From the NCBI GenBank assembly GCA_016180965.1, contig JACPAF010000004.1, forward strand, positions 1 to 38,688: a DNA stretch of 38,688 nt, read 5' to 3'. The translations under genes were made by a program, and so were the position numbers. The notes beneath the pieces were generated by a model that searched no databases, was not told the origin of the DNA, and saw nothing but the letters and a program-made list of their open reading frames with translations. Every line of letters starts with the position of its first letter. Position 1 is the stretch's first letter. This document shows, one piece after another, positions 23,821-30,732 of the stretch. Source of the DNA: Candidatus Aenigmatarchaeota archaeon (lineage in GTDB: Archaea > Aenigmatarchaeota > Aenigmatarchaeia > JACPZZ01).

Positions 23821-24087
23821 TTAACTTAACGAAGGCACGAGCGTTTTGCCTTGCCTGTATTTTGTTATCGTTGCGTCTGCTTCTTTCCTTTCTCCTATTG
23901 AACAAAGATCTTCGTAAAGGCCGAATATGCCGCGGCTCAGTACCTTTGTTTGTATAGCGCTTTTGTAGTCCATGATTTGAGGAGCGTTTGATCGTTTGAT
24001 ATCCTGCTCTTATTTCAACAGCCTGTCAAGAGAACTAACATACACGGCTTTCATGCACGGGCGCATTTTTTCGTCAACGTTTTCCAT
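23821..24087 (-). pseudogene. Broken paralogue of the 81-residue protein (in-frame TAA)
   Basis: From ATG 24087 the frame reads 25 residues (ending SSLDRLLK), then TAA at 24010-24012, then continues open for 62 more codons (EQDIKRSNAPQIMDY, LSRGIFGLYEDLC, ITKYRQGK) to TAA 23821. The intact copy at 21407-21652 has Tyr at the stop position (RLLQYERDIK), so a single change of TAT or TAC to TAA explains it. Aside from this, the copy is full length with no frameshift, so the inactivation is recent or the base call is wrong. Confidence 0.75.
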
Positions 24088-24147: not shown

Positions 24148-24199
24148 ACTTTAGCTACAAAACGCAGACTTTAGCTACAAAATCGACTTTTTCTACAAG
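24148..24199 (+). repeat. Three tandem ~20-bp iterons upstream of a TATA box
   Basis: ACTTTAGCTACAAAA occurs at 24148-24162 and 24168-24182, exactly 20 bases apart. A variant ACTTTTTCTACAAG follows at 24186-24199. A weaker relation, AATTTTACAAAC, lies at 24131. Tandem copies with two-turn spacing before a promoter are typical of binding sites for a cooperative regulator. Confidence 0.75.
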
Positions 24200-24202
24200 C
24201 CC

Positions 24203-24213
24203 GGGGGGGGGGG
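24203..24213 (+). repeat. 11-base G tract in promoter spacer
   Basis: An uninterrupted run of 11 G lies between the iterons and the TATA element TTTATATAC (about 24220-24228). Such tracts slip readily in replication. Here any change would alter the distance between the iterons and the TATA/BRE region. Confidence 0.85.
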
Positions 24214-24219
24214 CGTAAC

Positions 24220-24260
24220 TTTATATACAAGGTATGATATAGTAGGATATAGTGAGATAA
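24220..24260 (+). promoter_or_regulatory. Strong archaeal TATA promoter
   Basis: CTTTATATAC at about 24219-24228 is nearly identical to the element before the pilin gene at 38557 (CTTTATATACC). The expected transcript start is about 24248-24254, six or more bases before ATG 24260. It drives either the 80-codon frame or a structured RNA through 24260-24650. Confidence 0.65.
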
Positions 24261-24502
24261 TGTCGTATAATGATGCGATGCAATTGCCGAAAGCTGAACG
24301 AAACGGATTGTCCGCTCCGTTTGGCAAGGCGGAAACGTCTGTTAACCCAGGCAGGCTCGGAACCTGCGCGAGTCAGAAACCGTTTCCGTCCTCCTACTCG
24401 CAAGCCAGCGGGATAAAAGATGCGCCTGGCCTCGTTGTGGAAAACAGGTTTAACCTGTTTAGTTCTATTGCCAGCCAGCAGACGGGCCGGGCGCGTTCGT
24501 AA
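24260..24502 (+). CDS. Doubtful 80-residue protein or structured RNA
   Basis: The frame follows a strong TATA box, and its codons (GCG, CCG, AAA, GAA) are compatible with the genome. The predicted peptide, however, is polar and Ser/Pro/Gly-rich with no recognisable fold. The DNA has several short inverted repeats (GCAGG with CCTGC near 24350; AAACAGGTT with AACCTGTTT at 24442-24460). It could be a small lineage-specific protein or the non-coding part of an RNA. I cannot decide. The G tract and iterons upstream make its control unusual. Confidence 0.35.
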   Translation: MSYNDAMQLPKAERNGLSAPFGKAETSVNPGRLGTCASQKPFPSSYSQASGIKDAPGLVVENRFNLFSSIASQQTGRARS

Positions 24503-24505
24503 TTA

Positions 24506-24537
24506 GAAACAGGTGTTATTTTGTATACACCTGTTTC
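24506..24537 (+). terminator. 11-bp hairpin after the 80-codon frame
   Basis: GAAACAGGTGT (24506-24516) pairs perfectly with ACACCTGTTTC (24527-24537) around a ten-base loop. The AAACAGGT/ACCTGTTT core is also the stem of the palindrome at 24442-24460, so the two hairpins share a sequence. It may terminate or protect the transcript; there is no strong T-run. Confidence 0.55.
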
Positions 24538-24596
24538 AGTTGACAAAGAGGGTGAAGGACATGTAAGATTTAGTTGACAAAATAAAGCCGTTAAAC

Positions 24597-30151: not shown

Positions 30152-30732
30152 ATGGATTTTTCAACATTCGGTAAGGCTGTGGGGGGGGGGGAGTGGAAAA
30201 GCGTATTAAGAACGCGAGCGGCTATCTTAATTCCGGAAGTCTCGACGGACCGGATATAGAGTCTGCGGCGGTCGAGTACGGCAAAGCACGTTCCGAATTA
30301 ACTTTGGCAGGATCTTACGCCAAAACGCCCGAACAAAGACAGCGATATGATAAGGCTGCGGAAAGTTTGCATGGAATGGCAAAGGCGATAATTAACAAAG
30401 GTTTGGAAACTGTCAGAGAGGACATGGGGGCTTCAGAGCTATACATGCAACTTGCGGGGGACAAAGGCGACATTTATCATGCTAAACTTGTGAAAGCGCC
30501 GTCGACTTTTCCTTTTACACCAACTTTTGACAGGGATCCTCTGATGGGCAATGCTAACACGGTATATGATGGCGTCAATGCTACGATAACGCGTGCAGAA
30601 AAAAGGTTGGATTATACTAGACAAATAGCCGAGGCTGAAAACAATCCAGCTGCGAGCACGGATATAGAATCTTTAGGGAAGAGCGTGGCTGGATTGCGTC
30701 AGAAGCTTGAAGCGCGCGCCCGCGGAAATTAA
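30152..30732 (+). CDS. Orphan helical protein with 5' 11-G tract (possibly frameshifted or phase-variable)
   Basis: The clear open frame runs 30193-30732 (179 residues from GTG). It is Ala/Glu/Lys-rich and helical (YGKARSELTLAGSYAKTPEQRQRYDKAAESLHGM). No family is recognised. An upstream ATG at 30152 (with ATGs at 30140 and 30143 in frame) starts MDFSTFGKAVGGGG but is out of register with this frame because of 11 G at 30181-30191, and it stops at TAG 30257-30259. With nine or twelve G the two would join into one protein. A TATA-like TTTTAATT at about 30123 fits a start at the ATG cluster rather than at the GTG. Confidence 0.65.
30181..30191 (+). repeat. 11-base G tract at gene start
   Basis: A run of 11 G lies 29 bases after ATG 30152 and ends one base before the GTG at 30193. 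Tract length decides whether the upstream ATG is in frame with the 179-codon frame: nine or twelve G join them, eleven G do not. It is the only other G or C run of this size in the window besides 24203-24213. Confidence 0.85.

Follow-up and report, generated by a model that had tools for sequence, protein, structure and literature searches.

Bacteria routinely use slippage to switch genes at random. In Helicobacter pylori, sabA combines a T-tract beside the -35 element with a repeat in the coding sequence, and the pair forms a working promoter rheostat (PMC4081817). In the porA and opc promoters of Neisseria and the tpr promoters of Treponema, the length of a poly-G or poly-C run of ~8-12 controls transcription (PMC7864442). 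For the archaea, a 2025 review of phase variation leaves the distribution of such systems to future work (PMC11868660). A survey of coding poly-A/T tracts that includes 18 archaea proposes tracts near the start of coding genes as regulators; its passages concerned treat tracts of ~3-9 in coding genes, and contain no promoter tracts and no DPANN archaea.

Here we describe a predicted archaeal promoter in which an 11-G tract lies between a repeat array and a TATA box. The window, as the whole stretch of DNA analysed is called below, spans 38,688 nucleotides and is part of contig 7 of the 731-kb, ~81% complete genome of an uncultured member of the Aenigmatarchaeota. An initial annotation had read the locus as a possible promoter-length switch and had stated that the design was known from bacteria, a statement borne out by sabA and by the porA, opc and tpr promoters. 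It had also held that no archaeal example of the layout was established; our search of the open-access literature likewise gave none, and found no archaeal promoter with homopolymer phase variation. The congeners are Candidatus Aenigmatarchaeota groundwater MAGs, and the promoter locus is present in three of four of them, G001, G003 and G004, the species compared here with one genome each.

Repeat array, spacer and TATA core

On the forward strand, positions 24148-24227 hold, in order, two exact repeat copies, a degenerate third, GCCC, eleven G, CGTAAC and TTTATATA. Copies 1 (24148-24162) and 2 (24168-24182) both read ACTTTAGCTACAAAA, copy 3 (24186-24200) reads ACTTTTTCTACAAGC, and a fourth copy, also degenerate (ACTTTATATACAA, 24218-24230), overlaps the TATA box; the successive spacings, read directly and rechecked by script, are 20, 18 and 32. 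The array had been described as three tandem repeats at 20-base spacing. Two exact copies do stand 20 apart, but the third is degenerate and follows 18 on, and the count is better given as two exact copies with one or two degenerate ones than as three alike. With at most one mismatch, the motif ACTTTWKCTACAA has four sites in the window, all of them in the array, versus 0.26 expected. Across the 731-kb genome the only exact sites of the 15-mer are the two in the array; its other sites differ at three bases and do not outnumber those of a reversed-pattern control. A widely shared regulon was considered and rejected, this genome having no other copies and G003 and G004 few other arrays. In G004 and G003, inverted and direct copies of the motif ACTTTAGSTACAAAA lie at L060 7090-7195, L061 3600-3715 and L061 11420-11500, before accessory genes that by eye are toxin-antitoxin-like, AbiE-like and Fic-like; the L060 array includes a C10 tract.

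Copy 3 is found in all four species, with its spacing to the TATA box and downstream transcript kept. The penultimate repeat is also present in two species, copy 2 being retained in G004 and present in degenerate form, likewise 18 bp from copy 3, in G003. Copy 1 recurs with the same spacing in G004 (L005/L060), and G001 carries a copy pair at 20-bp spacing ~335 bp upstream of its own TATA box. The TATA box itself (TTTATATA, 24220-24227) lies inside the fourth repeat copy, and the ~50 bases from it to the start region are nearly identical in the congeners; the TATA-to-start interval includes 10-bp direct repeats, GTAGGATATA-like (24232-24259), that are strongly conserved in the genus. The 26-bp core block from CTTTATATAC to GGTATGATATAGTA has a single site, with at most one mismatch, in every one of the four congeners, counting this genome, and is otherwise present in only one of the remaining 152 genomes searched. 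Judged as a TATA/BRE promoter, with TTTATATA at 24220 and strong conservation downstream, the locus is a predicted promoter, and the comparison supports the view that repeats and TATA box form a promoter conserved in the genus. The 26-bp core CTTTATATACTAGGTATGATATAGTA also stands, without mismatch, in G107 (L068 / L092 893-918), which belongs to a different family, before a gene that by eye is GGDEF-like. On the minus strand of the window, a divergent small gene (23821-24087) has an in-frame stop after 25 codons; in G004 the homologue, likewise on the minus strand (L060 1958-2227), is an open frame.

Between the last repeat and the TATA box lies a GC-rich spacer (24199-24218) of 20 bp as assembled, two bases above that of the congeners. 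Measured from the last repeat to CTTTATATAC, their spacers (AACTCCCCCGGTCGGCAT in G001, AACCCCGCGCACCGGCGT in G003, GGCTCCCCCCCGCGATAA in G004) are each exactly 18 bp, with a GC content of 67-78% and differing sequences. Since this length is shared by three diverged species while the sequence is not conserved, length appears to matter. Compared between species, the spacer homopolymers are C7, C5, no run and G11, with C7 the longest in the congeners; the spacer's function thus does not seem to need a homopolymer, and the G-tract is specific to this species. Spacer length and GC-richness therefore look constrained, and the homopolymer does not. A G-quadruplex or other strand-specific role of the G-run is disfavoured, since the corresponding strand carries C in G052, G083 and G004.

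The tract occupies 24203-24213 and contains exactly 11 G, read directly and rechecked by script; as had been annotated, it separates the repeats from the downstream TTTATATA. A 6-base gap, CGTAAC (24214-24219), follows at the BRE position. Because the tract lies upstream of BRE and TATA box, changes in its length leave the core spacing untouched. They would, however, alter the constrained spacing between array and TATA box, which evolution holds constant (20 bp here against 18 bp in the three congeners); the importance of this spacing we infer from its conservation in congeners. In the comparison of related genomes, suggested in the initial annotation, no congener has a long G-run, and their spacer length is held at 18 bp.

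The downstream product

The ATG at 24260 opens an 80-codon ORF (24260-24502), and ORFs are open downstream of the promoter in all four species. An 80-aa protein was nevertheless rejected as the product: substitutions are spread evenly over codon positions (9/9/11 and 13/15/15), without third-position bias, the frame is not kept between species and no Pfam family matches; the ATG was not confirmed as a protein start. Folding predictions point instead to a putative structured RNA at 24250-24570 (ends approximate), with a z-score against shuffles of -5.6 here and -3.2 in G004, compared with 0.2 for a control coding stretch. The two-species consensus fold of G003 and G004 has z -4.0; the signal is weaker in alignments with G001, the G000/G001 and cross-pair consensus folds giving z -1.5 to -0.2. 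At 24546-24568, the four-species alignment holds a conserved 3' motif, AAGAGGGTG-N6-ATGTRARA. We conclude with moderate confidence that the locus probably encodes a structured RNA of ~300 nt rather than an 80-aa protein, and propose that this RNA is specific to the genus.

Known RNAs were considered as the product and set aside. At gathering scores no Rfam family matched within the window, and at E up to 5 the matches were only weak and unrelated; the SRP RNA is located elsewhere in this genome. A scan of ~400 kb gave no RNase P RNA, and the failed Rfam match at E up to 5 is all that stands against it as the identity of the transcript. A hairpin in the same region, GAAACAGGTGT...ACACCTGTTTC (24506-24537), is a dispersed element with other copies near tRNA genes (L006, L009, L010, L013, L014).

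Guanine tracts in the genome and across the phylum

The promoter tract goes far beyond chance. In 399 kb of this genome the counts of G/C runs drop ~sevenfold per added base, from 115 at length 5 to 12 at length 6 and one at length 7; lengths 8-10 are absent, and length 11 then occurs twice. Whereas runs shorter than 9 were counted on these 399 kb, a pattern search of the whole genome for runs of at least 9 found only two, each 11 long and both within the window, 6 kb apart; extrapolation predicts 0.001 runs of at least 11 in the genome.

The second 11-G tract (30181-30191, forward strand) comes directly after ATGGATTTTTCAACATTCGGTAAGGCTGT and falls in codons 10-14 of a gene at 30152-30732 whose product reads MDFSTFGKAV-[G]n-VEKRIKN.... 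The assembled 11 G put the downstream 179-codon ORF in a different frame from the ATG at 30152; 9 or 12 G would bring the two into one frame, and a homopolymer near the 5' end thus sets the frame of the gene. In G004 the syntenic ortholog, L071, lies 5.6 kb from that genome's promoter, an arrangement matching the one here; it is intact and in frame without a tract, reading MDFSQFGKASGHVERRIRN, and a G004 paralog reads FGRAVGGFE. The product is a predicted helical bundle (mean pLDDT 79.7) for which a structure search gave no PDB match at E <= 0.001. From its sequence, 30152-30732 either is built like a coding contingency gene in the off state, this being its single assembled state, or contains an assembly error. 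A tract-bearing promoter and a nearby out-of-frame gene together look like a random gene switch in the bacterial style.

G-runs of at least 10 occur in 40 of 151 genomes of the phylum, mostly one or two apiece; G138 has an unusually high number and may be a poor bin. Automatic classing of 56 such tracts placed seven in coding sequence with the frame broken and seven with the frame spanning the tract; three lie at contig ends or N runs, and all others within or next to intergenic DNA. G/C tracts of at least 8 upstream of TTTAWATA were found at four loci among 156 genomes, versus none for reversed patterns, and at three of the four (here, G052 and G083) the gap between tract and TATA box is exactly 6, that in G076 being 10. 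The G052 and G083 layouts precede orthologous genes in different genera.

Several coding tracts interrupt recognizable genes. A G10 at L106 1501-1510 (G059) splits a restriction-methylase of the Eco57I/TaqI_C type (type IIG-like) just before NPPW into an N6_Mtase/Eco57I half and an Eco57I and TaqI_C half, which likens it to the phase-variable R-M genes of bacteria. At L105 436-445 (G096) a G10, C on the strand shown, stands between the frame of a PAS/HisKA/HATPase kinase and that of a response-regulator receiver, and at L131 1543-1552 (G118) another breaks a reverse transcriptase gene mid-way. The junction of the DGR genes for Avd and reverse transcriptase carries G10-G11 in four species; the two form one frame in L134 (1504-1514) and L147 (1495-1504) and are split in L135 (1481-1490) and L124 (1501-1510). 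At L098 1501-1510 and L150 579-588 a G10 follows a TATA-like box just before the ATG of a gene whose product is, by eye, lipoprotein-like in the one case and a signal-peptide protein in the other. In G003, a G10 (L118 1501-1510) lies where a Shine-Dalgarno element would be expected, 6 nt ahead of an ATG. MutS_V was absent in all 30 related genomes searched, while it was detected in 11 of 14 genomes of the control set.

A candidate switch and its known counterparts

These observations can be assembled into one mechanism. The ACTTnnnnnnCAA copies would form an operator-like upstream array, putatively bound by a regulator, and a GC-rich spacer under length constraint would set the last copy apart from the BRE/TATA core. 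Here the spacer would have turned into a run of 11 G prone to slippage during replication, and slippage without MutS repair should leave cells differing in tract length. Each change would shift the array-to-TATA distance and the helical phase by single bases, with BRE and TATA box intact, and promoter output should vary in the manner of a rheostat or switch, while the tract at 30181 would act as a second, coding switch by which the gene for the helical protein gains or loses its frame. The steps that we infer are variation in tract length, binding of the array and the effect on transcription. As to the earlier claim that slippage would alter the distance and phase between bound regulator and transcription machinery, the constrained spacer, the non-chance tract, the frame-breaking second tract and the recurrence of the layout speak for it, and the restriction of the tract to one species and the scarcity of the layout, with four loci among 156 genomes, speak against it; a promoter-length switch is thus plausible and partly supported. 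For the reading as a whole, a genus-specific structured-RNA promoter with a slipping 11-G spacer and a second coding switch, we consider the case evenly balanced.

Other explanations account for parts of the same evidence. The spacer may need only to be GC-rich and ~18-20 bp long, in which case slippage would be neutral and one or two bases would have no regulatory consequence. The GC-rich spacers of the relatives (67-78%), which are not long G-runs, and the confinement of the tract to this species fit such an account, and the absence of MutS would alone lengthen GC-rich runs. It is harder to reconcile with a spacer held at exactly 18 bp in three diverged species despite its unconserved sequence, with the near absence of G/C runs of 7-10 elsewhere in the genome, which indicates that runs do not grow freely, and with the retention of the layout before an orthologous gene of two further genera. 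We regard neutral slippage as possible, though on the doubtful side.

Small errors in metagenome assemblies commonly fall in long homopolymers, and both tracts are given as 11 where both would fit the relatives better at other lengths. The true promoter tract might then be shorter, giving for example an 18-bp spacer, and uniform, and the 30152 frame intact in cells. The flanks, however, are unique and homologous to those of the relatives, even ~9 G would be the longest run of the genome, and tracts recur at one gene junction across several independent assemblies, so that error seems an improbable explanation. Less credible still is that the repeats are replication-origin iterons or the ends of a mobile element, with the TATA box incidental: they are tandem, and related arrays adjoin accessory genes in G004 and G003 (by eye toxin-antitoxin-like and Fic-like), yet in all four species the distance from copy 3 to a conserved TATA box and transcript is preserved, and the genes flanking the promoter within the window are ordinary and chromosomal.

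Beyond this locus, we tentatively suggest, leaning slightly to the sceptical side, that the Aenigmatarchaeota possess their own set of guanine-tract contingency loci like those of Neisseria and Campylobacter, comprising TATA-proximal rheostats, TATA-to-start tracts of secreted proteins and coding tracts that switch genes for restriction-methylases, signalling proteins and DGR reverse transcriptases; the promoter in the window would be its regulatory-RNA switch. If tract length varies in deposited reads, symbiotic archaea use bet-hedging at TBP/TFB promoters, and metagenomes that already exist could answer whether it does.

Compared with the coding poly-G contingency genes of Neisseria and Campylobacter, the gene at 30152 shares a tract within its first codons (30181-30191) that sets the frame, and differs in its archaeal host, its predicted helical protein and its single assembled state. 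The promoter shares with porA, opc and tpr a G or C homopolymer inside the promoter, but the porA tract is placed between -10 and -35, whereas here it is upstream of BRE and TATA box. With sabA it has in common a homopolymer between upstream elements and the core promoter, whose length changes their alignment, and an additional frame-shifting coding repeat, which sabA carries at the same locus and which here lies at 30181. The sabA system, for its part, has a bacterial sigma-70 promoter, contacts of the RNAP alpha-subunit and a T-tract; the present one, known from sequence alone, has an archaeal TATA/BRE promoter, a G-tract, repeats for a putative binder and a probable RNA product. In its proposed mechanism, the locus resembles the sabA rheostat more than the core-spacing switches of the porA type.
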